In this document: piece by piece, positions 6,860-63,419 of the stretch
Position numbering within the stretch: position 1 is the first letter of the stretch
How the letters are laid out: every line of letters begins with the position of its first letter
Source: Planctomycetota bacterium
GTDB lineage: Bacteria; Planctomycetota; Planctomycetia; Gemmatales; Gemmataceae
NCBI GenBank assembly: GCA_021413735.1
Contig: JAIOPV010000254.1
Coordinates: 1-64,000 of the forward strand
Direction of reading: 5' to 3'
Length of the DNA: 64,000 nt
The notes under the pieces: model-generated
Databases searched by the model: none
What the model was told of the DNA's origin: nothing
What the model saw: the letters and a program-made list of their open reading frames with translations, nothing else
Position numbers and translations under genes: made by a program

Positions 6860-6979
6860 CCACGGATGAACACAGATGAAACACGGATAAGACCAAACAC
6901 CGAGACAATTCAGGGTTTCAAAACAAAGTCTTCGTGGCGTTTGGTTTTATCCGTGTTTCATCTGTGTTCATCCGTGGCT
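6858..6979. repeat. 41-base inverted repeat (CCACGGATGAACACAGATG type)
   Basis: Bases 6858-6898 and 6939-6979 are reverse complements over 41 bases with one mismatch, with a 40-base loop between. The left arm overlaps the stop codon of the DUF6065-like gene. The element sits exactly between two convergent genes, so its transcript would form a very stable hairpin and could serve as a two-way terminator, although no U-run follows. Confidence 0.9.
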
Positions 6980-12443: not shown

Positions 12444-12650
12444 CCGGAATAACTTCCCAACCCGAAGATCGGTCTTGGTATTGACCTCCCCCCTTGTGGG
12501 GGAGGTCGCTCCGAATCTTCGAGGAGCGGGTGGGGGGTATGCCTTTACAATTGTTGACGCCTTACCCCCACCCGTCTCGCAAAGCCTCGCCGACCTCCCC
12601 CACAAGGGGGGAGGTCAAAACCAAAAGCCAATACCGGGAAGTTATTCCGG
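12444..12650. repeat. nested inverted repeat with 28-base perfect core
   Basis: Bases 12481-12508 and 12591-12618 are perfect reverse complements (core CCTCCCCCACAAGGGGGGAGG). Outer arms 12444-12458 and 12636-12650 (CCGGAATAACTTCCC and its inverse) also pair. Together they make a ~207-base element between the ABC ATPase and the Tat-signal gene. It carries no gene. It could stop or attenuate transcription, or be a small non-autonomous mobile palindrome. Confidence 0.9.
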
Positions 12651-42910: not shown

Positions 42911-42979
42911 GAGCCACGGGGTTTATCCCCGTGGTCTTCGAGACACGACCAAAGACCACGGGGATAAACCCCGTGGCTC
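42911..42979. repeat. perfect 28-base inverted repeat (GCCACGGGGTTTATCCCCGTGG type)
   Basis: Bases 42911-42938 and 42952-42979 are perfect reverse complements with a 13-base loop. Each arm holds the inner palindrome CCACGGGGTTTATCCCCGTGG, so cruciform or alternate hairpins are possible. It starts 14 bases after pfaD and is followed by a smaller palindrome (CCGAGGCAATGCCTCGG) and then the start of the next gene. Confidence 0.93.
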
Positions 42980-43037: not shown

Positions 43038-46000
43038 TTGACTGCTGCTGCAAATCGAAATGAGCCGTTGGCAATCGTCGGCATCGGGTGCCTGTTCCCG
43101 AAAGCTGCCGGTCCAGGGTTCTATTGGGCGAACGTGAAGCAAGGCGTCGACTGCATCGACGAAGTGCCGGCAACGCACTGGAACCCCGCCGACTACTTCG
43201 ACGCCGACCCCAAAGCCCCCGACATGACCTACGCTCGTCGCGGCGGGTTCCTCGATGTCGTGGACTTCAACCCGCTCGAATTCGGCATCGCCCCCCGCGA
43301 CATCGAAGCCACCGACACAACGCAACTGCTCGGGTTGGTCGCGGCCAAGCAAGCGCTCACCGACGCCGGCATCCGTTTCGCCGACCGCAGAAAAGAAGAC
43401 CGCGGCCCGCCGAAAGCTGAAGACAGGCGGAGAAGAGCAGACGACGGATCGGGGTTCCTGGCGTCTGCCAACAGTCCTGCGAACTCGGTTGTGGACCGTT
43501 CGCGAGTCTCCGTCATCCTTGGCGTCACGGGCACGCTCGAACTCGTCATTCCGCTCGGGGCACGGCTCGGCCATCCCAAGTGGAAGCAGGCAATGCGTGA
43601 CGCCGGCATTCCGGCCGATCGCATCGAAGACGCCTCGGCTCGCATCGCCGAATCCTACGTCCCCTGGCAAGAGAACAGCTTCCCTGGTCTGCTCGGCAAC
43701 GTCGTCGCTGGTCGAATCGCGAACCGCCTCGACCTCGGCGGCACGAACTGCGTCGTCGATGCCGCGTGTGCCAGTTCGCTCAGCGCCGTTCACCTCGCGG
43801 CAATGGAACTGCAAACCGGTCGGGCCGATGTTGTCGTCACCGGTGGGTGTGACACGTTCAACGACATCTTCATGTACATGTGCTTCAGCAAGACGCCGGC
43901 GCTTTCCGCGACGGGCAACGCGAAGCCATTCGATGCCAACGGCGACGGCACCATCCTCGGCGAAGGGCTGGGGATGGTCGTGCTGAAGCGACTCTCCGAT
44001 GCCGAAGCCGCCGGCGATACCATCTACGCTGTGATTCGCGGCATCGGTTCAAGCAGCGACGGCAAAGGCAACGCGATCTATGCCCCGAGCGCCGAAGGCC
44101 AGCGGCGTTGCTTGAAGAACGCTTACGCCGAAGCGGGCATCACGCCTGACACCATCGAACTGGTCGAGGCGCACGGCACCGGCACCAAGGTCGGCGACGC
44201 CACCGAGGTCACGGCGCTGACCGAGATTTACGGTTCGGTAAACAACGGAAAGCGAAGCGGCACGGGTCGGCCGTGGGCTGCGATCGGTTCCGTGAAGTCA
44301 CAGATCGGGCACACGAAAGCTGCTGCCGGTGCCGCGTCGCTCATCAAGGTTGCCCTCGCGCTGCACTTCAAGGTGTTGCCGCCGACGATCAAGGTGACGC
44401 AACCGGTCGAACCGCTCGCATCCGCCGATTCGCCCTTCTATGTGAACCTCACAATGCGGCCGTGGTTGCCGCGCAAGGAACACCCACGACGAGCCGCGGT
44501 GTCGGCGTTCGGCTTCGGCGGCAGCAACTTCCACGCGGTGCTTGAGGAGTACGGTGCCGCGAAGACCGACCTCGACTGGGATGGCTCCGTCGAAATCGTC
44601 GCGATTGGTGCAGACACGCCGCAGCAACTCGTCGCCGAACTGGAGAAACTCGGAGCGAAGATCCACCCCTCACCGACGCCGCTGGAGGGAGTTGGAGCGG
44701 CGACTAACTGGGCCTCCTTTGCTCGCTTCGCGGAACGGTCGCGGTCGTCGTTTGATGTGCTGTCGCCGTGCAGGCTCACGTTCGCGGCGCACCGCACGCT
44801 CACCGATCTGCCGAAGCTCTTGAACAGCGCGAAGACCCGACTCATCGCCGAAACCGAGTCCACGGGCTGGCACACCCCCGACGGCGTTTTCTACGGGCGT
44901 GGCCCTGGCGAGGGCTTGCTCGGCGTGCTGTTCCCAGGGCAGGGATCGCAGTCCGTCGGAATGCTGCGTGATCTCGCGTGCCTGTTTCCCGAGGTGCTGG
45001 AAAGCCTTGCAGAAGCGAACCGTGCTGTCACCGCACAATCGCAGGACGAAACCGACAACCACCGACTTTCCGACCGCATCTACCCACCGACGAGTTTCGA
45101 TCCCGACGCCAAGAAGCGCCAGGATCTCGACCTGCGAGACACGGCGAACGCTCAACCCGCTCTCGGCGCCGTGAGCTTCGGTGCGTGGCAGGTTCTCTCG
45201 GATCGTTTCGGCGTGCTGGCCGGCGCATTCGCGGGGCACAGCTACGGCGAACTCGTCGCCCTCGCCGCTGCGGGACGATTCTCGCCAGCCGATCTGTTCA
45301 GTCTGTCGCGTTTGCGTGGTCGCCTCATGGGCGAACGCCGAAGCGGTGATGCTGGAGCCATGCTCGCGGTGCTGGCTTCGATCGGCGATATCGAAGCGGT
45401 TATCCGAGAGCACAAACTCGACCTGATAATCGCGAACCGCAACGGGCCGAAACAGTCGGTGCTTTCCGGTGCGACGGCGGAAATCGAACGTGCCCAGCAA
45501 GCACTCGGCAATGCGAAATTGAAGTCGTTGCGGCTCCCCGTCGCGGCAGCGTTTCACAGTCCGTTCGTGGCCGATGCTGCGATTCCATTCCGTGCTGCCC
45601 TCGATGGTGTCGAATTCGGTCGCGGTGCCGTGCCGGTGTTCGCGAACACGACCGCCGCCGAGTATCCCGCCGACGTCCACTCTGCCCAGACGTTGCTGGC
45701 CAACCAACTCGCGAACCCCGTGGCGTTCGTCGAGGAAATCAAGGCGATGGTCGCCGCCGGCGTGAAGACGTTCCTCGAAGTCGGGCCTGGCACCGTTCTC
45801 ACCAAGCTGGTTGAAGCGATCACCGAGTACGCCGGGATTACGGGGGTCGAAGCGTTCGCGCTGGATGCCTCTGGGGGCAAACAGCCCGGTGTGTTAGACT
45901 TGGGGCGTGTGCTCGCTCGGCTCGCGGCTCGTGGTCATCGCGTCGAACTGGCGGCATGGGAAGCCGGCAGTCGCTGCCGACCGATCCGATTGGCTACCGG

Positions 46001-49000
46001 TAAACCCGGAATGACGATGCCGCTCACTGGTGCAAACTACGTCACGCCTCGCACACCTCGCCCACCGACACCGCCCGATTCCGGGCTGACCGCATCAATT
46101 GCGACGCGGAATGCCACCGAATTCACCATTACCCCGAACAGCCCGGTTCGCCAGAACACAGTCCGAGTCACAGGTATGAACGACGCCGAACCGAACGCAC
46201 TCACTCAGGCGTTGCTGATGACTCAGCAAAGTCTCGCATCGCTCCAGAGAATGCAGGAGCAGACCGCATCGCTTCACAAGCAGTTTCTCGACTCGCAGGA
46301 AGCCGCTCAGCGAACGCTTCAATCGTTGATCGAACAGCAACAGACGCTGCTTCTCTCGGGTCTCGGTACTGGCGTGTCGCTGCCAATGCCTGCACCCCAG
46401 CGCATCACGGCAAGCCCGCCACCGCCGCAACGAGTCGCGCCACCGCCGCCGGTCGCTGTGTCGCCTCCGCCTTCGGCGCGAATTGGCGCACCCCAAGTCA
46501 AGCCAGCAGCACCGGCACCGGTCGTCCAGGCACCGGTCGCCGCGAAACCGAAAACGCCATCACCAGCGCCAGCCGAGGACAAAATCGCCGCCACGCTGCT
46601 GGCCGTGGTATCGGAGAAGACGGGTTATCCCGTGGAGAGTCTGGATTTGTCGCTGTCGCTGGACGGCGACTTGGGCGTGGATTCGATCAAGCGTGTTGAG
46701 ATTCTCTCGACATTGCAGGAGAAGCTACCGGACTCGCCGCAGGTGAAGCCCGAACATCTCGGGACGCTTCACACGCTCCGCGATGTCGCCAACTTCCTCA
46801 CGCCAAAGGAAACCGTGTCGGACTCGGTTTCGCTCGGCGATTTCCCTGCCGACGACGATCCTTCGGTTCGCACGCTGCTGATTAACAAGACGAAGCGTTC
46901 CGCAACAATCAAGGCGTCGTCCACATCGCGAATGGCTCCGCCGGCAACCCCACCCGTTCCCAGTGGTCCGGATGTCGCGCAGGTGTTGCTGGCAGTCGTG
47001 TCTGAGAAGACAGGCTACCCCGTGGACAGCCTGGATTTGTCGCTGTCGTTGGATGGCGATTTGGGCGTGGATTCGATCAAGCGCGTCGAAATCCTCTCCG
47101 CATTGCAGGAGAAGCTACCGGACTCGCCGCAGGTGAAACCCGAACATCTCGGAACGCTTCATACGCTTCGCGATGTCGCCAACTTCATCGGCGGCCCCAA
47201 AAACGGCAGCGCGCACCTCGTTGACTCGAAGGAAATGCCCGCGATGGCGCAGGCTCCGCCAGCGGCCAAATCGCAGCGGTCCGGTGGATCAGCAACCATT
47301 GCGGAAACGGATCAGGTATCCGACACAGGTTCAGGACGGAAGAAGCACACCGACGCGACCCGCCACCCCGCTTCACGGACGCTACCTCAACCCGTGAACA
47401 TGATCGGAACCGACCGGGTTGACCGCAGCATTCTGCAACCCGTTGACCTGGATTTGACCAGTTCCCGCCCTCGCGTTTCGTTCCCTCCACGCAGCGAGTT
47501 CTGGGTCGTCGGTGAATCCGATGCTCTGACCGCTGCCGTGGCTGCTCGCTTGACCGAGCAGGGACTCATTCCGAAGGTGTTCGATTGGTCCGGACCTGTG
47601 GAGTTGCCTGCGGCGAGCGCCGGGTTACTGCTGATCGCCCCTCAATCGTCCGGTCCTGAGTTCGCGTTGAACCGAAAAGCGTTCGAGTGGCTAAAACTGG
47701 TCGGCCCGCGACTTCGGCAAGCAGCTCGCTCGGGGTCTGCTGTGTTCGTGACCGTGGCTCGGCTCGATGGCGAATTCGGGCTTGGGGATCTCGCGGCAAC
47801 TGCCGACCCCTCATCTGGCGGGTTGGCAGGGTTGGCGAAAACCGCCAGGCACGAGTGGCCCGAGTTGCTGTGCAAAGCGCTCGACCTGTCGCCGGAACTT
47901 TCGATCGAACAGGCCGCCAACGCGATCGTCGACGAAACGCTGACCATTGGGCCGGGTGAAGTTGGCATTTCGTCTTCGCACCGATGCAGTTTGGAACTCG
48001 CGCACACAGGCCGGCGACCTGGAACGCAGCTCATCAAGCTCGGCCGAAAAGATGTCATCCTCATCACGGGCGGAGCACGCGGCGTGACCGCTGAGGTTGC
48101 CGTTTCGCTGGCCGAAACTTACGGAGCGACGGTTGTTCTCGTCGGGCGGACGGCATCGCCGGCAGTCGAGCCTCCGTGGATTGCGAATCTCACCGACGAA
48201 GCTGAGATGAAGAAAGCGATCTCTTCACATCTCGGCGCCGATGGCGGCCCGAAGCAGGTTGGCGAGCAATACTCGCGTTACATGGGTCAGCGTGAGATTC
48301 GGCAAACGCTCGACCGGCTCGCACAGACCGGGGCGAGGTCTGCGTATCTGCCAGTGGACATCACGGATGTGAAGGCCGTTTCCGATCTCTTCCATTTGGT
48401 GCGTGCGACGATTGGCCCGATCACGGCCGTCGTTCACGGGGCCGGCGTGCTGGCCGATAAACGCATCGAAGACCTGACGAGAGAACAGTTCGAGCGAGTG
48501 TACGCAACGAAGGTGGACGGCTTGCGGAACATGCTCGACCATCTCACGGGCGACGAACTCAAGGCGTTGGTGCTTTTCAGTTCCACGACTGCTCGCCTCG
48601 GTCGCACGGGACAGGCTGCGTATGCGTGCGCCAACGAAGTGCTGAACAAGATGGCTCAGGTTGAATCGCGCCGCCGGCCAGGGTGTCGGGTTGTTGCGAT
48701 CAACTGGGGACCGTGGGAAGGCGGCATGGTGACCCCCGGTTTGCGGAAAGTCTTCGAAGCTGAGGGCGTGGGGCTTATTCCGTTGCTTGAGGGTGCGGTG
48801 TTCCTGGTGCAAGAACTCAGTGCTGGGAAATCCGTCGAGGTGGTTGCGCTGGGCAAACAACGGCCGGGCAGTTCAGGGGTCATCTCGCTGGGGAACACGA
48901 ACGCCGCTGGCTCCGGTTCCGGTCCGTCCATTGCCACGGTCACGCCATCGCTCGGGCCACCGCTTCCGACCGTGCCGGCTTCCGGGTCGTCAACCGAGAT

Positions 49001-49850
49001 GGTGGCGACTTTCGAGCGCACGGTGGACCCGGTTACGCATCCGATCTTGAGGTCGCACGTACTCGATGGCAAAGCCGTGTTGCCGATGTCTCTGCATCTG
49101 GAGTGGCTCGCACACGCGGCACTGCACGGCAACCCCGGCATGACGTTCCACGGGTTCAATGATCTGCGTGTGACCAGCGGCGTGCAGATCGACTCATCGG
49201 GACCGGTGCAACTGCGTGCGTTCGCGGGCAAGGGCGTGAAGCAGGATAAGTCGCTGGTTGTGCCTGTTCAACTGCGGAGCAAGCGGAAGGATGGCCGTGA
49301 GGCGATTCATTCGCGAGCCGAGATTGTGCTGATGTCGTCGTTGCCGTCACCGCCGCCCGCCGACAAGCCACCGACTGTGAAGCCTGTATCATATCCCGTC
49401 GCCCAGGCATATCGTGACTTCCTGTTCCACGGGACTGCACTGCGTGGCATCGAGAAGATCGAAGGAAGTTCGGAGTCGGCGTTCATCGGAACGGCGTTAG
49501 CCGCACCGTCGCCGGCTGACTGGTTCTTGTCGCCGTTGCGGTCGTCGTGGATTGCGGAACCGTTGGTGCTGGATGCGAGCTTCCAGATGATGATTCTCTG
49601 GACGCAGAAGCAGCACGAGAGCGGTTCGTTGCCGTGCTTCGCGGGCCGGTATCGTCAGTTCCGCAAGGCGTTCCCGCCGGGGCCGACGACGGTGGTGATT
49701 CGTGTGCGACGCGATGACGGCACGTTCGCCCGTGCGGACATCGACTATCTCGACGCGGAAGGCCGTGTGATCGCGCAGATGCAGGATTACGAGTGCGTGA
49801 TGGAGAAGTCGCTGAACGAAGCGTTCCGGAAGAACCAACTGGCACGGTGA
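43038..49850 (+). CDS. pfaA: PfaA/Pfa2-like polyunsaturated fatty acid synthase: KS-AT-ACP-ACP-KR-DH
   Basis: 2270 aa, TTG start at 43038 with GGAG 7 bases upstream. KS (residues ~10-505): active-site Cys244 in DAACASS, His379 in VEAHGTGTK, His425 in SQIGHTKA. AT (~630-950): Ser735 in GHSYGE, FPGQGSQ before it. Two ACPs with pantetheine Ser1216 and Ser1346, each in LGVDSIKRVEIL, the form seen in PUFA synthases. KR (~1665-1950): VILITGGARGVTAEVAV, Tyr in GQAAYACANEV. C-terminal hotdog DH: His2007 in HVLDGKAVLPM (HxxxGxxxxP). It extends and reduces the growing chain. Only two ACPs are present, against five to nine in classical PfaA. Residues ~118-151 of the KS are an Arg/Asp/Glu-rich insert. 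No thioesterase is present. Confidence 0.93.
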   Translation: MTAAANRNEPLAIVGIGCLFPKAAGPGFYWANVKQGVDCIDEVPATHWNPADYFDADPKAPDMTYARRGGFLDVVDFNPLEFGIAPRDIEATDTTQLLGLVAAKQALTDAGIRFADRRKEDRGPPKAEDRRRRADDGSGFLASANSPANSVVDRSRVSVILGVTGTLELVIPLGARLGHPKWKQAMRDAGIPADRIEDASARIAESYVPWQENSFPGLLGNVVAGRIANRLDLGGTNCVVDAACASSLSAVHLAAMELQTGRADVVVTGGCDTFNDIFMYMCFSKTPALSATGNAKPFDANGDGTILGEGLGMVVLKRLSDAEAAGDTIYAVIRGIGSSSDGKGNAIYAPSAEGQRRCLKNAYAEAGITPDTIELVEAHGTGTKVGDATEVTALTEIYGSVNNGKRSGTGRPWAAIGSVKSQIGHTKAAAGAASLIKVALALHFKVLPPTIKVTQPVEPLASADSPFYVNLTMRPWLPRKEHPRRAAVSAFGFGGSNFHAVLEEYGAAKTDLDWDGSVEIVAIGADTPQQLVAELEKLGAKIHPSPTPLEGVGAATNWASFARFAERSRSSFDVLSPCRLTFAAHRTLTDLPKLLNSAKTRLIAETESTGWHTPDGVFYGRGPGEGLLGVLFPGQGSQSVGMLRDLACLFPEVLESLAEANRAVTAQSQDETDNHRLSDRIYPPTSFDPDAKKRQDLDLRDTANAQPALGAVSFGAWQVLSDRFGVLAGAFAGHSYGELVALAAAGRFSPADLFSLSRLRGRLMGERRSGDAGAMLAVLASIGDIEAVIREHKLDLIIANRNGPKQSVLSGATAEIERAQQALGNAKLKSLRLPVAAAFHSPFVADAAIPFRAALDGVEFGRGAVPVFANTTAAEYPADVHSAQTLLANQLANPVAFVEEIKAMVAAGVKTFLEVGPGTVLTKLVEAITEYAGITGVEAFALDASGGKQPGVLDLGRVLARLAARGHRVELAAWEAGSRCRPIRLATGKPGMTMPLTGANYVTPRTPRPPTPPDSGLTASIATRNATEFTITPNSPVRQNTVRVTGMNDAEPNALTQALLMTQQSLASLQRMQEQTASLHKQFLDSQEAAQRTLQSLIEQQQTLLLSGLGTGVSLPMPAPQRITASPPPPQRVAPPPPVAVSPPPSARIGAPQVKPAAPAPVVQAPVAAKPKTPSPAPAEDKIAATLLAVVSEKTGYPVESLDLSLSLDGDLGVDSIKRVEILSTLQEKLPDSPQVKPEHLGTLHTLRDVANFLTPKETVSDSVSLGDFPADDDPSVRTLLINKTKRSATIKASSTSRMAPPATPPVPSGPDVAQVLLAVVSEKTGYPVDSLDLSLSLDGDLGVDSIKRVEILSALQEKLPDSPQVKPEHLGTLHTLRDVANFIGGPKNGSAHLVDSKEMPAMAQAPPAAKSQRSGGSATIAETDQVSDTGSGRKKHTDATRHPASRTLPQPVNMIGTDRVDRSILQPVDLDLTSSRPRVSFPPRSEFWVVGESDALTAAVAARLTEQGLIPKVFDWSGPVELPAASAGLLLIAPQSSGPEFALNRKAFEWLKLVGPRLRQAARSGSAVFVTVARLDGEFGLGDLAATADPSSGGLAGLAKTARHEWPELLCKALDLSPELSIEQAANAIVDETLTIGPGEVGISSSHRCSLELAHTGRRPGTQLIKLGRKDVILITGGARGVTAEVAVSLAETYGATVVLVGRTASPAVEPPWIANLTDEAEMKKAISSHLGADGGPKQVGEQYSRYMGQREIRQTLDRLAQTGARSAYLPVDITDVKAVSDLFHLVRATIGPITAVVHGAGVLADKRIEDLTREQFERVYATKVDGLRNMLDHLTGDELKALVLFSSTTARLGRTGQAAYACANEVLNKMAQVESRRRPGCRVVAINWGPWEGGMVTPGLRKVFEAEGVGLIPLLEGAVFLVQELSAGKSVEVVALGKQRPGSSGVISLGNTNAAGSGSGPSIATVTPSLGPPLPTVPASGSSTEMVATFERTVDPVTHPILRSHVLDGKAVLPMSLHLEWLAHAALHGNPGMTFHGFNDLRVTSGVQIDSSGPVQLRAFAGKGVKQDKSLVVPVQLRSKRKDGREAIHSRAEIVLMSSLPSPPPADKPPTVKPVSYPVAQAYRDFLFHGTALRGIEKIEGSSESAFIGTALAAPSPADWFLSPLRSSWIAEPLVLDASFQMMILWTQKQHESGSLPCFAGRYRQFRKAFPPGPTTVVIRVRRDDGTFARADIDYLDAEGRVIAQMQDYECVMEKSLNEAFRKNQLAR
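46596..47186 (+). repeat. tandem ACP-coding repeats, 390-base period
   Basis: Bases 46596-46796 and 46986-47186 encode the two ACP domains of the PfaA-like protein and are nearly identical, including long runs without synonymous change around the pantetheine Ser codon (for example TTGGGCGTGGATTCGATCAA in both). The linkers differ. This points to recent duplication or ongoing gene conversion between the two copies. Confidence 0.9.
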
Positions 49851-49868: not shown

Positions 49869-50060
49869 AGCCCTGGAAGGGCGACGGATGGTAGCCAGGG
49901 GTGAAGCGAAGCGAAACCCCTGGAAACGTGAACCAAACACCGTAAACACTTACCCGGAACGCCCCGAAAACGCACGGCGTCGGGTTGTCTCGCATCGCCT
50001 CCGGACCAGGGGTTTCGCTTCGCTTCACCCCTGGCTACCATCCGTCGCCCTTCCAGGGCT
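49869..50060. repeat. perfect 55-base inverted repeat between the two synthase genes
   Basis: Bases 49869-49923 and 50006-50060 are perfect reverse complements over 55 bases with an 82-base loop. The arm starts AGCCCTGGAAGGGCGACGGA. It begins 18 bases after the stop of the KS-AT-ACP gene and ends 28 bases before the next ATG. A transcript reading through would form an exceptionally strong hairpin directly ahead of the next gene. Confidence 0.95.
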
Positions 50061-50088: not shown

Positions 50089-53000
50089 ATGACGACCGAT
50101 CGTATTGCCATCGTTTCCGTTGCGGGTCGGTTCCCAGGTTGCGGAGCCGATCTCGGTCGCTTTTGGGAGAACGTCGCTGCTGCCAAGGACTGCGCTCGCG
50201 AAGTGCCCGTCGAGCGCTGGATTCTTCCACCCGATCGCTGCACCGATCCACGCATCGCCAATCCTGACACCGTCTACTCCACCCGCGGCTACTACCTCGA
50301 TCAGTTCCTCCCCGACCTGACCGACCTCGACCTCGACCTCGCACTCGTCGCCCAACTCGACCCACTGTTCCATCTCGTTCTCGACACCGGCAACCGTGCG
50401 TGGCGCGAAGCACGCACCGACAAAATCGACCGCTCCCGCGTCGGCGTCGTCCTCGGTAACATCTGCCTGCCAACCGACGGTTCTTCCGATCTCTGCCGGG
50501 AAATCCTGGGTCAGAAGGTCGGGCTTCCTGCGGGCGTGGGCACGCATCCACTGAACCGCTACGTCGCTGGCTTGCCTGCCGGATTGCTGGCACGCGGGCT
50601 TCGCCTCGGCCTCGGGAGCTACACCCTCGACGCCGCGTGTGCCTCGTCGCTGTACGCGATCAAACTCGCCGCGGATGAGCTCATCGCTGGTCGTGCCGAC
50701 GCCATGCTCGCCGGCGGATGTTCACGCCCCGACTGCCAGTACACCCAGATGGGATTCGCACAACTTCGCGCGCTCTCCGTATCTGGGCGTTGCGGGCCGT
50801 TCGACACGGGAGCCGATGGCTTGATGGTCGGCGAAGGTGCGGGCATCTTCGTGCTGAAGCGACTCACCGACGCCATGCGACACGGCGACCGCGTTCTCGG
50901 TGTCATCGCGAGCGTGGGTCTGTCGAACGACATGCACGGCAACCTGCTCGCCCCAGCGAAGGAAGGGCAACTACGAGCAATGCGGCGAGCTTACGAACTC
51001 GCCGAGTGGGAACCGACCGACGTCGATATGATCGAGTGCCACGCGACCGGAACGCCCGTCGGCGACGCCATCGAATTCGAGAGCTTGCGCGAACTGTGGG
51101 GCGAGTCCGGATGGGTGCCGGGCAAGTGCCCCATCGGGTCGGTGAAGTCCACCGTCGGGCACCTTCTCACGGGTGCGGGGGCAGCGGCGCTCACGAAGGT
51201 TCTACTCGCGATTCGTGCCGAGATGTTCCCGCCGCAAGCGAACTTCGCCACGCCAGCCGAGGGGTTGCGATACGCCAACGGGCCGTTCCAAATTCTGACG
51301 AAGCCCGAGAAGTGGAACCGCCGCGTGGCTCACGAACCGCGTCGGGCTGCGGTCAGCGGCTTCGGTTTCGGTGGCGTGAACGCTCACTTGCTGCTTGAGG
51401 AATGGACGCGTATTCCGAGTCGCAAGGCGAACCGCACGACCACCGGAGCGCCGAAGCTGGTGATGACTCATCAGGTGAAGTGGAAGGCACCGTCGGATGA
51501 GGATGTTCCGGCGGTCGCTGGGGTGCCGGTCGCAATCGTCGGGCTCGCGGCACACTTCGGTTCGTCGGACAGTCTGCGAGCGTTTCAAGAGCGGACACTG
51601 TCGGGCGACCCCGGCGAGGCGTTGCCCAAGTCGAACGGTTGGGACCTGGCGAACGTGCCGTCACCGCCCGCGTTCGGCATCGAGGAATTACGTCTGCCGA
51701 CCGACCGCTTCAGGATTCCGCCGAAGGAACTGGAGGAGACGCTTCCGCAGCAGTTGTTGATACTGAAGGTCGCGACGGCGGCGCTCGACGATTACAAAGC
51801 GGGCGACAAACCCGGTGAAAGCGACGCAAGCACAACAGGCGTCTTCGTGGGCCTCGGCCTCGATCCGAACACGACGAACTATCACCTCCGATGGGCCGTG
51901 CGGGCCAACGAGAAAGCGTCTGGCGACAACGCTTCGCCGCCGTTGTCCGCGAACCGCACAATGGGTGCGCTCGGTAGCGTTGCCGCGAGCCGGATCGCAC
52001 GGACGTTCCATATCGGCGGACCAAGCCACACCGTTTGCAGTGAAGAAGCATCGGCGGCGCGAGCGTTCGAGCTTGGCGTGCGTGCCCTTCAGACGGGAGA
52101 GTTGGATCGCGTCATCGTGGGCGGAGTCGATCTGGCGTGCGATCCGCGAACGGTGCTGCCCGGCAAGGTGAAGACGCCCGGTGAAGGGGCTGCTGCGTTC
52201 ATCCTGAAGCGACTCGAAGACGCCGAGCGAGACGGCGATCGAATTTACGCGATCGTTCGCGGAGTTGGCGTCGCGACCGATGCGGCGCTTGCTCGCAAGA
52301 GAGCCGAACGCGATGCGGCCGATCCGTTCGAGACAGCCGCCGAGTTCGACGCGGCGAGCGATGTGGGTGCTGCTGGAGCTGCGTCTGCGGGTGCGTCGCT
52401 CGCCAAGGCGTGCGTTGCACTGTGGAATGAATTACTCACCGATCCGCCCCGATACTGGCTGCGTGACCGCGACGACAAGCCGCGTCGCGCCGTGGTGACG
52501 GCCAGCGGCGCCGATGGTTCGCACTTCGCGATTCTGCTCGAAGAACGCCGGAGGAAGACCGCCGATATCATCGGGAAACCGGAGTTCACGCAGCCGTTGG
52601 GGTCACGACCCGAGGCGGTGTTCCTCGTGGAAGGTGCCTCGCCAACCGACCTGATCGCGGGCCTCGATCGGCTCAAGGCGTTCGCGACCGGCGAGCGCTC
52701 ACGGCCCATCGAAGCGCTCGCTCGGGCGTGGTTCCACGCAGTGCCGCCGGTTCGGCTGAATAAGCTCGCCGTGTCGTTCGTCTCGCGGTCGATGGAGGAA
52801 CTCGCCGAGCAAATCGCGTTCGCGGCCGAGGCACTCCGCACGAATCCGAGCGATCCGTTCCCGCCGACCGCGAGGCCGAGTCTCCGCGACCGCGTGTTCT
52901 ACTCGCCGCACCCACTCGGGCCGAAGGGGAAGATCGCGTTCGTGTTCCCAGGCTCCGGCAACCAATTCGATGGCATGGGTCGCGACCTCTCCGCACATTG

Positions 53001-56000
53001 GCCCGACATCATTCGCAAGCAGCAGACCGAGAACGAACTCCTGCGAAGTCAGTTCTCACCGGAACACTTCTGGACGGGCCGAGCCGACGATGCACCCGCA
53101 CGCGAGATGATGTTCGGGCAGGTGACGGTCGGGGCGTTGGTCAGTGACATCCTGGTGTCACTCGGCATTCGCTGCGACGCGATGATCGGGTTGAGTCTCG
53201 GCGAATCGGCGGGTTTGTTCGGCATCCGGGCCTGGCGAACGCGCGACCGCATGTTCCAGCGGATGCAGAAATCGACGCTGTTCACCTCGGACCTCGCACC
53301 ACCATACGACGCCGCCCGAAATCACTGGCGAATCCCCGCTTCCGAGGATGTCGATTGGGTTATTGGGTTGGTTGCGGTTTCCGCTGACGATGTTCTCGCG
53401 GTGCTGCGGCCCGGGCTTCGTGCGTACTTGCTGATCGTGAACACGCCAAACGAGTGCGTCATTGGCGGCCTGCGTGCGGATGTGGAGAAACTCGCCGTCG
53501 TTCTCAACAGGTCGGTGACTGCGCTAACGGGCGTGACGATTGCCCATTGCGAGGTTGGTCGCGAAGTCGAGATGCCTTACCGCGAACTGCACACGCTGCC
53601 GGTCATGGCTCCGCAGGGCGTCCTCATCTACAGTGGTGCGTGGGGCAAGAATTACAAGCCCAGCGATAAGATGTGTGCCGAGTCCATCACCGCGGGGTTG
53701 ATGACGACAATAGACATGCCGGGCCTCATCGAAGTGGCTTACCGCGATGGCGTTCGTGCGTTCGTGGAAGTTGGGCCTGGGGGCTCGTGTGTTCGCATCA
53801 TCGACGCGATTCTGGGCGATCGACAGCACGTGGCTCGTGCCGCTCACGTCGCGAAGCAGGACGCACTTTCGCAGATTCTTCGGCTCGTCGCGCATCTCGC
53901 GGTTGAGCGGTGGCCCGTGAATTTCGCCGCGTTGTACGGGCATGAATCGCGTTGCGCTGGGCACCACGAGAAGCCGCATTCTTCGCGCAACGAGATGGTG
54001 ATTCCGGTCGGCGGCACAACGAAAGCAGCCTTCGCTCCGGTTCCCACTTCAATCGAAACGACCCCGGCGCCCGTGCTGACGCCGACGCCCGTTCCAGTGT
54101 TCGTTCCGACCCCCGCACCGGTTCCCATTTTCGATCCGACGTTGGTGGCAACGCCGCGGCCGAGGGCCGTTCCTGGCCCCATCGCGGTTCCAGTTCCACC
54201 ACGACCACCCGCACCCGCCGTACCTGTCGCACCCGTGCCCGCGAGTGACAACGCGGTGTCATCGGTTGAGCAGCCCTCGATGCTGACCCCTGCGGACACG
54301 GCCATAAACGTGCAAATTCTCGCCATGCAGGCGCAAGAAGCGTTCCTCCGCGTGAATCAGAGTTTCACCGAAACTGCTGCTGGCATCATGCGATTCCAGG
54401 GGCAGCTCATCGAAGCGTTGGCTGGTTCCGGGCGAGCGGGGGACGTGAGTCCCCTGTTTCCTCCCGATGACAACAGGGAGCTCCCCCTGCTTCCCACCCC
54501 CGCTCGCCAAGACGTTCCGCGTTCGCTCACATACGAGCAGTGTTGTGCTTTCGCCGCGGGGAAAGTTGCCGATGCCCTCGGGGCGAAGTTCGCGGAAGTC
54601 GATAGCTTCCCGACTCGTGTTCGCCTTCCAGATGGGCCGCTGCAACTCGTCGATTGTATCACGCTCATCGAGGGCGAACCGCTGTCGATGACACACGGCC
54701 GCGTCGTCACAGAACACGCCGTGCGTCCGGATCGGTGGTATCTCGAAAACGGTCGCATTCCGACAGCCATTTCCGTTGAAGCAGGGCAAGCCGACCTGTT
54801 CTTGTCGGGCTATCTCGGCATCGACTTCCAGACTCGCGGGCTGGCGGTTTATCGCCTGCTCGATGCGGTCGTGAGCTTTCAGCGTGGGCTGCCGGTGCTT
54901 GGCGAAAAGGTTGTCTACGACATCCACATTGACGAGTTTGTGAAGCAAGGCGACTCGTGGATCTTCCGCTTCTGGTTCGATGGCACTGTCAACGGCGAGC
55001 CATTCATCAAGATGCGAAAAGGCGTGGCAGGCTTCTTCACCGCAGCAGCGCTGGCAGCAGGAAAGGGCATCGTTCAGACGACGCTCGACAAGCGACAGAT
55101 GCCCGGTCAGCGACCAGGCGATTGGCGTGAACTTGTGCTGCAGCGGGAATGCTCGCTGACGCCCGAACAGGTGACCGCTCTCCGTGCGGGTGATCTCGCC
55201 ACGGCGTTCGGTCCCGAGTTTGCCGCGTTGCCGTTGAACAAGCCCGCGACGATTCCGGGCGGCATGCTCAGACTCGTGGATCGCGTTCCGAAGATCGACC
55301 CCACCGGCGGGCGTTTCGGCATGGGCTTCGTGCGAGCCGAGTTCGACATTCACCCCGACGATTGGTTCCTGACGTGTCACTTCGTCGATGACATGGTGAT
55401 GCCGGGCACGCTCATGTACGAGTGCTGCCTGCACACGCTGCGAATCTACCTGATGCGAATGGGTTGGGTTGGCGAAGCGGCCGAGGTTGTGTGCGAGCCA
55501 CTGCCCGACATCGACAGTCGCTTGAAATGTCGCGGGCAGGTCATCGCCAGCACGAAGACCGTGACCTACGAAGTGACGCTGAAGGAAGTCGGCTACGGAC
55601 CCGAACCGTTTTGCGTCGCCGATGCCTTGATGTACGCCGACGGCAAGCCGATCGTTGAAATCACGAACATGACGCTCCGCATGTCGGGGCTATCACGCGA
55701 GAAACTGGAACGGTGTTGGGCGAGCGATGCCACTCACGCCACCGGTGCCATGACTGGCACCGCTCGCCCGAAAGTGCTCTACGACAAGTCGAAGATCCTC
55801 GCGTACTCGAACGGCAAGCCATCCGAAGCGTTCGGCGAACCTTACGCGATCTTCGATACCGATTCGATCATCGCGAGACTGCCCGGCCCGCCATTCCAGT
55901 TCCTCGACTGCGTCACGGATGTCACCGGCGAGCCGTTCGTCATGAAGGCTGGCGCGGCGTGCGAGACGCAATACGAAGTGCCGCCCGATGCCTGGTATTT

Positions 56001-56841
56001 CAGCGAGAACCGTGGCGAGCGAATGCCGTTCGCTGTCCTGTTGGAGATAGCCCTTCAGCCGTGCGGTTGGCTCGCGGCGTATTGCGGCTCGGCACTCACC
56101 AGCCCCGAAGACCTGTCGTTCCGCAACCTCGGCGGCAAGGCGAACCAACTTCGCACTGTGACGCCCAAAACGGGACTGCTCACGGTCAACGTGAAGATGA
56201 CATCGGTGTCACGTTCCGCGGGCATGGTGATTCAGCATTACGACATGAAGGTTCGCGACAGCGTCGGCGTCGTGTACGAAGGCACAACGTACTTCGGTTT
56301 CTTCACGAAGAAGGCGCTCTCGAATCAGGTTGGTCTGAAGGATGCGAAGATCCCGTGGCCGAGCGACGCTGAACAAACACGAGCCGAGAAAGAGAAGTTG
56401 CCGGATCGAGTGCCGTTCCCGGCTCCGATGCTTCGGATGGTTGATCGCATCGACGCTTATCTGCCTGGCGGTGGCCCGGCGGGGTTGGGCCTCGTGATCG
56501 GTGGAGTCGCGGTCGATCCGACGTTCTGGTTCTTCAAGGCGCACTTCTACCAAGACCCCGTGTGGCCGGGGTCGCTCGGAGTAGAATCGTTCCTGCAACT
56601 GCTGAAGTATGCCGCGTGGAAGCGATGGCGCACGGTGCCAGCCGAGGGATACCAGACGGTCGCGATCAACAAGCCGCACTCGTGGGTTTATCGCGGGCAA
56701 GTTCTGCCGACCGACAAAGAAGTGACGGTGATACTTGAAGTGACCGCCGCCGATGACGATAATCAGCGACTCACCGCGAACGGATTTCTGATCGTGGATG
56801 GGCGTATCATCTACCAGATGACGGACTTTACGCTAGAGTAG
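50089..56841 (+). CDS. pfaC: PfaC/Pfa3-like polyunsaturated fatty acid synthase: KS-CLF-AT-DH-DH
   Basis: 2250 aa, ATG at 50089. KS (residues ~3-440): Cys184 in DAACASS, His in ECHATGTPV, His in STVGHLLTG. A second KS-like domain (~480-810) has SEEASA where the catalytic DAACASS should be (Glu653 by ungapped comparison), as in a chain-length factor. AT (~935-1290): Ser1036 in GLSLGES, FPGSGNQ before it. A Pro/Val-rich linker follows (~1305-1390), then four FabA-like hotdog modules making two DH pairs. The second and fourth keep the His motif (His1764 in CHFVDDMVMPG, His2152 in AHFYQDPVWPG); the first and third have ENGRIP or ENRGERMP there. It resembles myxobacterial Pfa3 but lacks the terminal AGPAT acyltransferase. 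Confidence 0.92.
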   Translation: MTTDRIAIVSVAGRFPGCGADLGRFWENVAAAKDCAREVPVERWILPPDRCTDPRIANPDTVYSTRGYYLDQFLPDLTDLDLDLALVAQLDPLFHLVLDTGNRAWREARTDKIDRSRVGVVLGNICLPTDGSSDLCREILGQKVGLPAGVGTHPLNRYVAGLPAGLLARGLRLGLGSYTLDAACASSLYAIKLAADELIAGRADAMLAGGCSRPDCQYTQMGFAQLRALSVSGRCGPFDTGADGLMVGEGAGIFVLKRLTDAMRHGDRVLGVIASVGLSNDMHGNLLAPAKEGQLRAMRRAYELAEWEPTDVDMIECHATGTPVGDAIEFESLRELWGESGWVPGKCPIGSVKSTVGHLLTGAGAAALTKVLLAIRAEMFPPQANFATPAEGLRYANGPFQILTKPEKWNRRVAHEPRRAAVSGFGFGGVNAHLLLEEWTRIPSRKANRTTTGAPKLVMTHQVKWKAPSDEDVPAVAGVPVAIVGLAAHFGSSDSLRAFQERTLSGDPGEALPKSNGWDLANVPSPPAFGIEELRLPTDRFRIPPKELEETLPQQLLILKVATAALDDYKAGDKPGESDASTTGVFVGLGLDPNTTNYHLRWAVRANEKASGDNASPPLSANRTMGALGSVAASRIARTFHIGGPSHTVCSEEASAARAFELGVRALQTGELDRVIVGGVDLACDPRTVLPGKVKTPGEGAAAFILKRLEDAERDGDRIYAIVRGVGVATDAALARKRAERDAADPFETAAEFDAASDVGAAGAASAGASLAKACVALWNELLTDPPRYWLRDRDDKPRRAVVTASGADGSHFAILLEERRRKTADIIGKPEFTQPLGSRPEAVFLVEGASPTDLIAGLDRLKAFATGERSRPIEALARAWFHAVPPVRLNKLAVSFVSRSMEELAEQIAFAAEALRTNPSDPFPPTARPSLRDRVFYSPHPLGPKGKIAFVFPGSGNQFDGMGRDLSAHWPDIIRKQQTENELLRSQFSPEHFWTGRADDAPAREMMFGQVTVGALVSDILVSLGIRCDAMIGLSLGESAGLFGIRAWRTRDRMFQRMQKSTLFTSDLAPPYDAARNHWRIPASEDVDWVIGLVAVSADDVLAVLRPGLRAYLLIVNTPNECVIGGLRADVEKLAVVLNRSVTALTGVTIAHCEVGREVEMPYRELHTLPVMAPQGVLIYSGAWGKNYKPSDKMCAESITAGLMTTIDMPGLIEVAYRDGVRAFVEVGPGGSCVRIIDAILGDRQHVARAAHVAKQDALSQILRLVAHLAVERWPVNFAALYGHESRCAGHHEKPHSSRNEMVIPVGGTTKAAFAPVPTSIETTPAPVLTPTPVPVFVPTPAPVPIFDPTLVATPRPRAVPGPIAVPVPPRPPAPAVPVAPVPASDNAVSSVEQPSMLTPADTAINVQILAMQAQEAFLRVNQSFTETAAGIMRFQGQLIEALAGSGRAGDVSPLFPPDDNRELPLLPTPARQDVPRSLTYEQCCAFAAGKVADALGAKFAEVDSFPTRVRLPDGPLQLVDCITLIEGEPLSMTHGRVVTEHAVRPDRWYLENGRIPTAISVEAGQADLFLSGYLGIDFQTRGLAVYRLLDAVVSFQRGLPVLGEKVVYDIHIDEFVKQGDSWIFRFWFDGTVNGEPFIKMRKGVAGFFTAAALAAGKGIVQTTLDKRQMPGQRPGDWRELVLQRECSLTPEQVTALRAGDLATAFGPEFAALPLNKPATIPGGMLRLVDRVPKIDPTGGRFGMGFVRAEFDIHPDDWFLTCHFVDDMVMPGTLMYECCLHTLRIYLMRMGWVGEAAEVVCEPLPDIDSRLKCRGQVIASTKTVTYEVTLKEVGYGPEPFCVADALMYADGKPIVEITNMTLRMSGLSREKLERCWASDATHATGAMTGTARPKVLYDKSKILAYSNGKPSEAFGEPYAIFDTDSIIARLPGPPFQFLDCVTDVTGEPFVMKAGAACETQYEVPPDAWYFSENRGERMPFAVLLEIALQPCGWLAAYCGSALTSPEDLSFRNLGGKANQLRTVTPKTGLLTVNVKMTSVSRSAGMVIQHYDMKVRDSVGVVYEGTTYFGFFTKKALSNQVGLKDAKIPWPSDAEQTRAEKEKLPDRVPFPAPMLRMVDRIDAYLPGGGPAGLGLVIGGVAVDPTFWFFKAHFYQDPVWPGSLGVESFLQLLKYAAWKRWRTVPAEGYQTVAINKPHSWVYRGQVLPTDKEVTVILEVTAADDDNQRLTANGFLIVDGRIIYQMTDFTLE

Positions 56842-58117: not shown

Positions 58118-58998
58118 GTGCGCTTTACCCGTTTGTCGGCCATTTCCTCGACCGAAGCGCCGGAAAGCTCCACTACCTCGACGAAGGCAGCGGTGATCCT
58201 GTCGTGATGGTTCACGGCAACCCGACGTGGAGTTTCTACTTCCGCAATCTCGTGCTGACGCTGCGGGACAAGCACCGCTGCATCGTGCCGGATCACATCG
58301 GCTGCGGCCTCTCGGATAAACCGCCCACAACGAGCTACGACTACTCGCTGAAGTCGCGTGTCGATGACCTCGAAGCGTTGCTCGATCATCTCGGCGTACG
58401 GGAGAACATCACGCTTGTCGTGCAGGATTGGGGCGGCATGATCGGCATGGCATACGCCGCTCGGCATCCCGAGCGCATCAAGAGAATCGTGGCGACGAAC
58501 ACGGGGGCGTTTCCGCTGCCGAAGTCGAAGCCGTTTCCGTGGTCGCTGTGGCTCGGTCGTAACACACGGCTCGGTGCGTGGCTCATCCTGAAGAAGAACG
58601 CATTCTGCCGGGTCGCAGCGAAGTGGTGCGTCACACGGAAGAAATTGCCCGCCGACGTGCGAGAAATGTACCTGAAGCCATACGACAGCCCAGAGCATCG
58701 TGTCGCAGTGCTCAAGTTCGTGCAAACTATCCCGCTGAGCGAACGCGACCCGGGTTGGGATATCGTGAGTGACACCGCATTGTCACTGTCGAAGTTTGCA
58801 AACGTGCCGACGCTGCTGCTGTGGGGAATGCGAGACTTCGTGTTCGATCGCCACTTCCTTGCGGATTGGCAGCGATACTTCCCGCACGCCGAAACGCACA
58901 CCTGGCCCGACTGCGGGCACTACTTGCTCGAAGACGCCGGGGAAGAAGCGATTCCAATGATCCGGGAGTTCCTGGCGAAGCACCCAATCACCCCGTGA
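58111..58998 (+). CDS. oleB: OleB-like alpha/beta hydrolase, beta-lactone decarboxylase
   Basis: 295 aa from ATG 58111, which overlaps the last codons of oleA (ATGGTGA); an in-frame ATG at 58090 is less likely. Haloalkane-dehalogenase-like alpha/beta hydrolase: oxyanion region MVHGNPTWSF, nucleophile Asp106 in VVQDWGG, acid Asp in RDFVFDRHF and base His270 in CGHYLLED. In the Ole pathway OleB splits CO2 from the beta-lactone to give the olefin. It overlaps oleC by four bases (GTGA), so translation is coupled. Confidence 0.92.
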   Translation: MVSALYPFVGHFLDRSAGKLHYLDEGSGDPVVMVHGNPTWSFYFRNLVLTLRDKHRCIVPDHIGCGLSDKPPTTSYDYSLKSRVDDLEALLDHLGVRENITLVVQDWGGMIGMAYAARHPERIKRIVATNTGAFPLPKSKPFPWSLWLGRNTRLGAWLILKKNAFCRVAAKWCVTRKKLPADVREMYLKPYDSPEHRVAVLKFVQTIPLSERDPGWDIVSDTALSLSKFANVPTLLLWGMRDFVFDRHFLADWQRYFPHAETHTWPDCGHYLLEDAGEEAIPMIREFLAKHPITP

Positions 58999-60767
58999 AC
59001 CCTTCCCCTCTCAATGTTGCAACGCACCTGGCGCGGATGGCTGCCGACCACCCGACGCAAGTGGCCATTCACTTCCCGCGTCGCGGCGTGAAGCCCGAAG
59101 GCACTTCCGAACACATCGCCGTCACGTTCGCGGAACTGAACGCCGACGCCGACGCCATCGCTCACGGTCTCGTTGCTGCTGGCATCGTTCGCGGTACTCG
59201 CACAGCACTGATGGTGCCGCCGTCCCCGAACTTCTTCGCACTCACATTCGCGCTGTTCAAGATCGCTGCGGTGCCAGTGCTGATCGACCCCGGCATGGGC
59301 ATCCGCAACCTTGGCAAGTGCCTTGCAGACGCGGAGCCTGAAGCGTTCATCGGCATCGCGAAAGCCAACGCCGCACGTCGCGTGCTGGGCTGGGGTAAGA
59401 AGACGATTCGCACAACCGTGAACGCGGGTCGGTGGCGATTCTTTACCAAGCATTCACTGTCGAAGTTGCGGGCCATCGGCAAGTCACGCGCCGCGTATCC
59501 GATCCCAGACGTGGCCCCAGACGAACCGGCTGCGGTGCTATTCACGAGCGGAAGCACGGGCATCGCGAAGGGAGCCGAGTACACGCACGGCATCTTCGCG
59601 GCACAGGTCGATTCGCTAAAGGCGACCTACGCCATCGAACCCGGCGAGATTGACCTCTGCACGTTCCCGCTGTTCGCGCTGTTCGGGCCAGCGCTCGGCA
59701 TGACCTGCGTGATTCCCGACATGAACCCGACGCGGCCCGCACAGCTCGACCCACGAAAGGCGGTCGCACAGATCAAGCAGTTCAGTGTCACGAATATGTT
59801 CGGCTCGCCCGCGGTGGTTCGGCGCTTGGGCGATTTCGCTTGTGAGCGTCGAGGCGTGAGCCCGACGGTGGAACCCTCAAACAGCCCGATGGTAGAAGAG
59901 CCAAACCGTCGGGCTCACGCCTCGACGCTCACAACGCTGCGGCGTGTCATCTCGGCGGGGGCTCCTGCGTCGGCTGCGTCGCTTGAACGCTTCGTGAAGT
60001 TGCTTCCCGACACGGCTCAGGTGTTCACGCCATACGGTGCAACCGAAGCGTTGCCGGTTGCAAATATCGGCAGCCGCGAGATACTAGGCGAGACTCGCAA
60101 ACTGACCGAACAAGGCAAGGGCGTCTGCGTGGGCCGTCCGGTTGCCGGAATGGAAGTTTATGTGATTCCGATCTGTGATGAGCCGATACCGGAATGGTCC
60201 GACTCGCTGCAATTGCCAGCGGGGGAAATCGGCGAGTTCGTGGTTCGCGGTCCGGTCGTGACGAAGCAATACTTCAACCGTCCCGAAGCGACGAAGCTGG
60301 CGAAATTAGTTGATCTGAAGACCGGCGACATTCTGCATCGGATGGGCGACGTGGGCTACATCGACGAAACCGGCCGGCTTTGGTTCTGTGGGCGAAAGTC
60401 GCACCGCGTCGTGACCCCACACGGCACGCTCTTCACAGACATGGTGGAACCGATCTTCAACACCGTCCTGGGCGTATCCCGTACAGCACTTGTCGGCGTG
60501 AGGCGGAACGGTGTGACATACCCAGTGCTCTGCGTCGAGTGCCTCCCCCCAATGTGGAAAATGACGCCCTGGAGTCTCGGCCTTGTGGAACCCCACCTCC
60601 GTGAAGTTGGGGCGGGATTCGATCCCACCCGCTGCATCACCACCTTCCTCCAACACAGTGGGTTCCCTGTGGATGTGCGGCACAACTCGAAGATCTTCCG
60701 CGAGAAGCTCACCGCGTGGGCCGACAAGCAACTCGGTCCGAACTGGAAGCCGGAGGCCGCCACATGA
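58995..60767 (+). CDS. oleC: OleC-like beta-lactone synthetase (AMP-dependent ligase family)
   Basis: 590 aa, GTG start at 58995 overlapping the oleB stop; the frame is open from 58821 but that part is antisense-type filler. ANL superfamily: AVLFTSGSTGIAKGAEYTHG is the P-loop, TPYGATEALPVA the A5-type motif, GDVGYIDETGRLWFCGRKSHRV the hinge, NSKIFREKLTAWA the C-terminal Lys region. It activates a beta-hydroxy acid with ATP to form a beta-lactone. Residues ~283-313, between LGDFA and LRRVISAGAP, are encoded by a perfect palindrome (59842-59932) and look like an inserted stretch of about 30 residues that has kept the frame open. It overlaps oleD by four bases. Confidence 0.93.
   Translation: MNPSPLNVATHLARMAADHPTQVAIHFPRRGVKPEGTSEHIAVTFAELNADADAIAHGLVAAGIVRGTRTALMVPPSPNFFALTFALFKIAAVPVLIDPGMGIRNLGKCLADAEPEAFIGIAKANAARRVLGWGKKTIRTTVNAGRWRFFTKHSLSKLRAIGKSRAAYPIPDVAPDEPAAVLFTSGSTGIAKGAEYTHGIFAAQVDSLKATYAIEPGEIDLCTFPLFALFGPALGMTCVIPDMNPTRPAQLDPRKAVAQIKQFSVTNMFGSPAVVRRLGDFACERRGVSPTVEPSNSPMVEEPNRRAHASTLTTLRRVISAGAPASAASLERFVKLLPDTAQVFTPYGATEALPVANIGSREILGETRKLTEQGKGVCVGRPVAGMEVYVIPICDEPIPEWSDSLQLPAGEIGEFVVRGPVVTKQYFNRPEATKLAKLVDLKTGDILHRMGDVGYIDETGRLWFCGRKSHRVVTPHGTLFTDMVEPIFNTVLGVSRTALVGVRRNGVTYPVLCVECLPPMWKMTPWSLGLVEPHLREVGAGFDPTRCITTFLQHSGFPVDVRHNSKIFREKLTAWADKQLGPNWKPEAAT
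59842..59932. repeat. perfect 27-base palindrome inside oleC
   Basis: Bases 59842-59868 and 59906-59932 are perfect reverse complements (arm starts GTGAGCGTCGAGGCGTGAGC) with a 37-base loop. It lies wholly inside the oleC reading frame and is translated as CERRGVSPTVEPSNSPMVEE plus a short tail. It resembles in size and build the intergenic palindromes of the window. Confidence 0.95.
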
Positions 60768-63352: not shown

Positions 63353-63419
63353 TTGAGCGAGCCGCGACCGCAAGGGAGGTGCCACGTTTCCCGCTCCCTT
63401 GCGGTCGCGGCTCGCTCAA
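63353..63419. repeat. perfect 26-base inverted repeat (GAGCGAGCCGCGACCGCAAGGGAG type)
   Basis: Bases 63353-63378 and 63394-63419 are perfect reverse complements around a 15-base loop. It starts 20 bases after the RNA ligase stop and ends exactly where the coding similarity of the following gene remnant begins. Confidence 0.94.

Follow-up and report, generated by a model that had tools for sequence, protein, structure and literature searches.

A REPIN-like doublet of transposase-associated repeats at a synthase gene junction in a Gemmata-like planctomycete

Introduction

Within the 64,000-nt stretch of contig JAIOPV010000254.1 analyzed here (the window), two large synthase genes follow each other on the forward strand. 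The upstream synthase S1 (43038..49850) has the domain order KS-AT-ACP-KR-DH, and the downstream synthase S2 (50089..56841) contains KS and FabA-like domains, as delineated from open reading frames and Pfam domains; we take them to be PfaA-like and PfaC-like, respectively. The short region between them is occupied by a long perfect inverted repeat, which raises the question of whether this structure serves the expression of the two synthases or is a mobile sequence that settled there. A first-pass annotation of the same DNA had considered a hairpin that cuts readthrough, a substrate of RNase III and a recent insertion. In our analysis the repeat is best described as a REPIN-like doublet, that is, two REP-like units in head-to-head orientation with an 82-nt spacer between them, inserted between the synthase genes, a reading to which we assign a probability of about 0.9.

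Structure of the inverted repeat at the synthase junction

The two arms of the repeat (49869-49923 and 50006-50060) are 55 nt each, 100% complementary and separated by 82 nt, in agreement with the perfect 55-base repeat described previously. The distances given for it, 18 nt after the S1 stop (ORF end 49850) and 28 nt before the S2 start (50089), also hold when computed from the ORF coordinates. It is the longest of the eight inverted repeats that were listed in the window for arm distances of at most 1 kb. Its predicted RNA fold reaches -150.1 kcal/mol compared to a shuffle mean of -70.8 (z of -16, equaled by none of 200 shuffles), whereas a 41-nt stretch of the arm matches the window twice, at the two arms, and has no match in 100 shuffles. 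The fold score and the absence of shuffle matches reject a chance origin. A chance or assembly-generated inverted duplication would suit the perfection of the arms and the two deviations from the family consensus that both of them carry, but many copies occur elsewhere and most other pairs are imperfect, which together with the shuffles leaves this explanation a vanishingly small probability. Since the two consensus changes are shared, they point to a probable common origin of the arms or to their homogenization.

The first-pass suggestion that the hairpin cuts readthrough did not survive a consensus scan, which gave no terminator-like site, i.e., no short GC hairpin followed by a T run, on either strand (shuffles average 0.8). 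An intrinsic terminator or attenuator setting the S1:S2 ratio would be consistent with a very stable and rightly placed hairpin, but the 82-nt loop and the dispersal of the copies also speak against it, and we regard this role as very improbable. A 55-bp perfect duplex would be a plausible RNase III substrate. The search of the whole window against Rfam gave no match at gathering scores, and microRNA-type matches (mir-H1 and others) were rejected as lying far below their gathering scores.

Each arm is a two-hairpin unit composed of a small covarying hairpin, a GTAG tetranucleotide and a larger hairpin. In the repeat family to which the arms belong, termed R1, the unit of approximately 55 nt starts with AG and continues with the small GC hairpin A, about 8 nt, GTAG and the larger hairpin B, which reads CCAGGGGT ... 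ACCCCTGG. The left arm (49869..49923, plus strand) is a complete unit that scores 86.7 bits with the R1 model. In this arm, hairpin A (GCCCT-gga-AGGGC; 49870..49882, plus strand) forms the outer tip of the element and covaries between copies, the GTAG at the foot of hairpin B (49891..49894, plus strand) is invariant in the family alignments A2 and A3, and hairpin B itself (49895..49923, plus strand; CCAGGGGT ... ACCCCTGG) is supported by core matches and covariation. The right arm (50006..50060, minus strand) is a complete unit identical to the left one, also at 86.7 bits, and comprises hairpin B (50006..50034, minus strand; core matches and covariation), its GTAG (50035..50038, minus strand; CTAC in the plus-strand sequence) and hairpin A (50047..50059, minus strand; sequence and covariation). 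By eye, the ends of the spacer between the arms (49924..50005, no strand assigned) resemble those of several other pairs, beginning with AAACGTGAACC... on the left and, from the right arm, with TCCGGAGGCGA....

Other inverted repeats are present in the window. A 30-nt perfect inverted repeat (59840-59934; arms 59840-59869 and 59905-59934) is located inside the gene of an AMP-binding enzyme (58995-60767), and in the alignment of this enzyme the same protein loop is flanked by two conserved motifs and contains insertions of varied sequence and length in some relatives (e.g., genomes G001 and G012; none in G014). This loop appears to be a candidate site at which palindromic repeats can land in frame. 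A further four long inverted repeats, all intergenic, have other sequences (6858-6979, 12475-12624, 42911-42979 and 63353-63419); three of them are found between co-directional genes, and that at 42911-42979 is located ahead of the first synthase gene.

A dispersed family of two-hairpin repeats

The 29-nt core of the arm has 28 matches with at most three mismatches in the 9.8-Mb genome, compared to none for the reversed control pattern. A covariance model of the R1 unit was built from 14 equally long unit rows; the other five of the 19 distinct variants, which have a longer hairpin A, were omitted from the model and kept in the counts. With this model, at least 75 matches were identified in the genome at E ≤ 0.01 (150 of 8700 candidates scored). 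The GTAG is invariant in both the 19-row alignment A2 and the 14-row alignment A3. Both hairpins covary, with six of the 13 base pairs altered on both sides, four of them in hairpin A, and 99.4% of cells are paired in R1 matches vs. at most 61.8% in slid controls; these values come from 65 aligned matches (49 distinct) of 34 sources, the own genome and its relatives, in an alignment that was fitted to the R1 model and is biased towards it.

The units occur predominantly as inverted pairs. Among the matches listed, R1 neighbors at most 250 nt apart comprise 23 head-to-head, two tail-to-tail and two tandem arrangements, and the head-to-head spacers span 39-122 nt. None of the 14 pairs checked lies within a called gene, whereas a 15th pair encloses a transposase gene on contig C244 and was set aside; the gene calls used for this check, as well as for the junction background and the orthologous-junction test described below, were based on codon scores. 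Over the 15 pairs, arms are more alike within a pair than between pairs (6.67 vs. 10.14 edits; permutation P = 0.0002), with zero edits in the window pair and in the pairs on C109 and C244 and imperfect arms in most other pairs. Beyond this genome, R1 was found at E ≤ 1e-9 in 14 of the 18 congeneric genomes and in two of 22 genomes outside the genus.

Association with Y1 transposase genes

The genome encodes 11 Y1_Tnp genes at E ≤ 0.001, and nine R1 matches lie within 350 nt of these genes vs. 0.083 expected from a uniform spread. Four of the genes adjoin R1 (on contigs C36, C228, C244 and C197), three have the Rfam motif RF01687 within 350 nt instead (C135, C282 and C88), and the remaining four have neither. 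In the R1 units at C36 and C244 and the RF01687 units at C282, which enclose the gene, the small hairpins are outermost, as in the window pair; the window element therefore resembles a transposase unit reduced to its two ends, without the gene. At C197 and C135, the units around the gene are oriented opposite to the window pair, and at C228 an R1 pair is located on one side of the transposase gene. The enzymes encoded at C36 and C228 share 71% identity over 143 residues. Around the C36 gene, six R1 units are spread across approximately 7 kb (C36:21500-30500), and the transposase frame at this locus opens inside a repeat unit and lacks an upstream ATG. Tandem 29-nt units occupy the start of contig C228 (locus L041, positions 1-145), approximately 1.3 kb from a transposase gene.

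We further compared 40 Y1 loci, including 29 from relatives (one locus per genome) and the 11 from the own genome. According to the motif that follows the HUH domain, 26 of them are Y...Q..HH, eight have Y[IV]..Q only (one own locus and seven high scorers that are IS200-like or unassigned), two have an NP motif and four are unassigned. Matching inverted arms on both sides (score of at least 16) were found in 21/26 Y...Q..HH loci, as compared to 1/8, 0/2 and 2/4 in the other three classes, respectively; 8% of 650 mismatched left/right flank combinations reach the same score, partly because the layout is common to the loci. Among 16 proteins chosen from the 26 of the Y...Q..HH class, Y115, Q119, H122 and H123 are invariant together with H55 and H57 of the HUH motif, and these proteins are 150 aa long with a conserved C-terminal stretch. 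The NCBIfam model for IS200/IS605 transposases recognized five of six Y...Q..HH proteins above its cut-off, with the protein of locus L034 below it. None of the seven proteins submitted passed the cut-off of 80 of NF047646, the model for REP-associated tyrosine transposases; only five gave any match to it, the IS200-type protein of locus L188 at 38.5 bits and four proteins of the Y...Q..HH class at 19.9-31.9 bits. By this model, the cognate enzymes are not members of class 2 TnpA_REP (RAYT); most of them have Y---Q--HH, the signature of TnpA_Y1 subclass 1.2, to which they would be assigned on this basis.

The co-occurrence of the repeat and the enzyme has gaps: genomes G001 and G002 have Y1 (E ≤ 1e-12) but no R1 (E ≤ 1e-9), and in G007 the situation is reversed. 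The element has three features of REPINs, namely inverted REP units able to form a hairpin, dispersed extragenic copies and association with a Y1 transposase gene of the genome, and it shares with GTAG REPs the GTAG at the foot of the palindrome. Because of its dispersed copies, head-to-head pairs and nearby HUH/Y1 transposase genes, it is probably a REPIN-like non-autonomous mobile element.

The Acido-Lenti-1 motif and transposase genes

RF01687, or Acido-Lenti-1, is among the 104 candidate RNAs reported in PMC2864571, and a 2026 study (PMC13298647) calls it a non-coding RNA of little known function. It resembles the window unit on the opposite strand, both consisting of a hairpin, CTA, a spacer and a small GC hairpin, but it is filed as a small RNA and both window arms match it weakly, at 22.4 bits against a gathering score of 37. 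In the own genome, we found at least 115 matches at E ≤ 1, including at least 11 above the gathering score (150 of 1823 candidates scored), and the two best of the matches scored flank the Y1 gene on contig C282.

The association with transposase genes extends to other genomes. Using cmscan, RF01687 at E ≤ 0.05 was found to adjoin 20 of the 40 Y1 loci, on both sides in 14 of them, and the matches at 11 of these 20 loci reach or exceed the gathering score; in control loci with synthase junctions it was found at the same threshold in none of 16. The motif is confined almost entirely to one class of enzymes, with 19/26 Y...Q..HH loci, 0/8 Y[IV]..Q loci, 0/2 NP loci and 1/4 unassigned loci, and three of the seven Y...Q..HH loci that lack it at this threshold (L029, L031 and L033) have R1 units. 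Of the 14 loci with RF01687 on both sides, nine demonstrate the simple arrangement with the small hairpins outermost. In the remaining five, the gene is either bordered by a pair on both sides (L195 and L204) or accompanied by units in the opposite orientation (L032 and L213) or in a mixed one (L210).

Among 79 genomes of the class, RF01687 (E ≤ 1e-7) is present in 25 and Y1_Tnp (E ≤ 1e-12) in 37, the latter being found in 22 of the 25 genomes with the motif (the exceptions are G082, G084 and G096) vs. 15 of the 54 genomes without it. In 17 genomes, which were reached via named loci and include one (G118) that has its matches at the positions seen in G077 and is seemingly the same assembly, RF01687 (E ≤ 1e-6) was found in six and Y1_Tnp (E ≤ 1e-10) in 15. 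One of these six genomes, Verrucomicrobia bacterium LW23, has two identical 54-bit matches (C25:144589-144634 and 145249-145294) that flank a Y1 gene (144746-145090), and in G118 one match adjoins a Y1 gene. In the other four, no match adjoins a Y1 gene among those listed at these thresholds, and G122, where the motif is present, has no Y1_Tnp at E ≤ 1e-10.

As RF01687 shares both the layout of R1 and its association with transposases, it is best read as the putative end of such mobile DNA elements rather than as an RNA. If this is correct, the covariation formerly taken as evidence of RNA structure would reflect a structure of single-stranded DNA. In the open-access literature, we found no paper linking RF01687 to transposases, an absence there that is not proof of novelty.

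The synthase junction in related genomes

The option of a recent insertion, one of the three raised at first, gained support as far as the insertion is concerned: the repeat is a copy of a dispersed, transposase-associated family, and an R1 unit was found at E ≤ 0.01 in none of the 29 orthologous junction loci of relatives. A 7-letter core match at the junction of G013 was checked and contains no unit of the R1 family. An exact empty site is absent among the relatives, because the near ones carry other repeats at this junction. The comparison with orthologous clusters, proposed in the first-pass annotation, showed an inverted repeat at the junction in most congeneric species, but of differing sequence, so that the structure may still have a role.

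Perfect inverted repeats of at least 12 nt are found between S1 and S2 in 12 of the 18 genomes of the genus (own genome included; the junction of G005 was unreadable), and among the rest, two have no repeat of at least 8 nt, three have repeats of 8-9 nt and one has a repeat of 11 nt. The repeat sequences differ, with one common, by eye, to G007, G009 and G012 and another, in G016, similar in style. When mismatches are tolerated, a stem score of at least 12 is reached at S1-S2 in 12/15 genomes of the genus vs. 12/47 cases at four other operon junctions (4/8, 1/13, 2/13 and 5/13) and 30/190 background tandem junctions, the latter sampled in 20 segments of 20 kb from four complete genomes of the genus. 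In the orthologous-junction test of 90 clusters, S1-S2 is the most occupied junction (8 of 9 genomes, or 7 of 8 relatives when the own genome is omitted). Taking the rate of each genome into account, the P-value for 7/8 is 1.3e-4, or 0.0015 for gaps of at least 50 nt. Counting one member of a close trio, the occupancy is 6/6 (P = 2.7e-4, or 0.0025 for gaps of at least 50). When all clusters are considered, no 8-mer is common to the two members of 44 of the 46 co-occurring repeat pairs, and the general excess without S1-S2 is modest, being matched in 139 of 2000 permutations (29 of 2000 for gaps of at least 50). The S1-S2 position thus appears to be hairpin-prone, and it may be read either as carrying a selected structure or as a permissive landing site.

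Selection would keep a hairpin here for mRNA processing, stabilization of the upstream message or insulation of translation, with its sequence being replaced by incoming palindromes. The high frequency of perfect repeats in the genus, the excess over other operon junctions and the tandem background, the leading position among the orthologous clusters and the scarcity of common 8-mers all argue for it. However, a second junction of the window chosen in the same way (5904/6089) has an inverted repeat in six of seven syntenic relatives, again of differing sequence, so that a permissive site may explain both junctions, and the case for selection on the synthase junction alone is weakened. The 5904/6089 comparison used homology-based gene calls, whose starts differ from the codon-score calls; for example, in G013 this junction has a gap of 238 and a stem of 23 by homology vs. 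a gap of 36 and a stem of 5 by codon score. Moreover, six of the 18 genomes of the genus have short repeats or none, a longer gap both permits insertion and results from it, gene starts are estimated and the tests are post hoc. In other genera of the family and in Desulfuromonadales, the gaps are mostly shorter and lack a repeat, which is present in L111 and L112, and the Desulfuromonadales orthologs read have a 14-nt gap with no repeat. Taken together, we consider maintenance by selection somewhat unlikely, and the more specific proposal that Gemmata-like planctomycetes select the S1-S2 hairpin as a structure, using mobile palindromes as raw material and replacing their families from lineage to lineage, is slightly less likely again. 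The junction nevertheless provides a natural setting in which to ask whether a hairpin is retained by position in bacteria while its sequence turns over.

In six junctions (L092, L093, L096, L098, L099 and L103), the 5' arm of the hairpin consists of imperfect short tandem repeats (AGTCTCA-like), which start at or near the stop codon and have different letters in several species. This style of hairpin may derive from a distinct process. For another gene of the window (12807-14039), the 18 congeneric genomes gave no match at E ≤ 1e-40.

Comparison with known systems

For the REPIN-like doublet, the following scenario can be proposed. A Y1 transposase would recognize the hairpin in single-stranded form, using the GTAG at the foot of hairpin B as a guide; such a guide was tested for TnpA_REP enzymes (PMC8266576). 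The doublet would move and spread as a short non-autonomous passenger of the transposase, a concept put forward for REPINs (PMC3116915). The window copy would have entered the junction after the split from the sampled species, and its folding into a 55-bp hairpin in the synthase mRNA would be a side effect, by which the message might be cut by RNase III or its upstream 3' end protected.

Similar to REPINs and BIMEs (PMC3116915), the element is an inverted doublet of REP units with a spacer, dispersed, extragenic and able to form a hairpin, with a Y1 transposase of the genome. In contrast to them, its unit has a second small covarying hairpin outside the GTAG hairpin, and the cognate enzyme of the family comes from another subclass of TnpA_Y1. 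The GTAG REPs outlined in PMC3733652 share with it the GTAG foot, head-to-head dimers, partly conserved spacers and a location near upstream stop codons. The same paper describes TIRtrons, in which tyrosine transposase genes are enclosed by long inverted repeats, some of them doubly palindromic, similar to the R1 arrangement; R. baltica, O. terrae and K. versatilis are among the species it names. As it covers both GTAG-tagged repeats of the PVC superphylum and transposase units bounded by long inverted ends, the kind of element is already known. A search of the open-access literature, judged by title, found no paper on repeats of bacterial Gemmata.

The cognate enzymes have in common with TnpA_Y1 subclass 1.2 the signature Y---Q--HH, a length of 150 aa and a conserved C-terminal stretch. 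In PMC6006769, this subclass is reported mostly from Cyanobacteria and Bacteroidetes and generally lacks typical terminal IS200 structures, whereas the loci described here belong to Planctomycetota and have two-hairpin inverted ends and dispersed copies. The verrucomicrobial gene of LW23 with such ends is known here as a Y1_Tnp match and not by the signature. Class 3 of the same source, found in Planctomycetes and Acidobacteria, has high-copy atypical structures with a CnGA foot and is alike in habit but not in signature. Cognate repeats of subclass 1.2 were not found in the open-access literature, where absence is not proof of novelty. With R1 and the RF01687-like ends, the little-studied Y---Q--HH branch of Y1 transposases would gain a set of cognate two-hairpin repeats.
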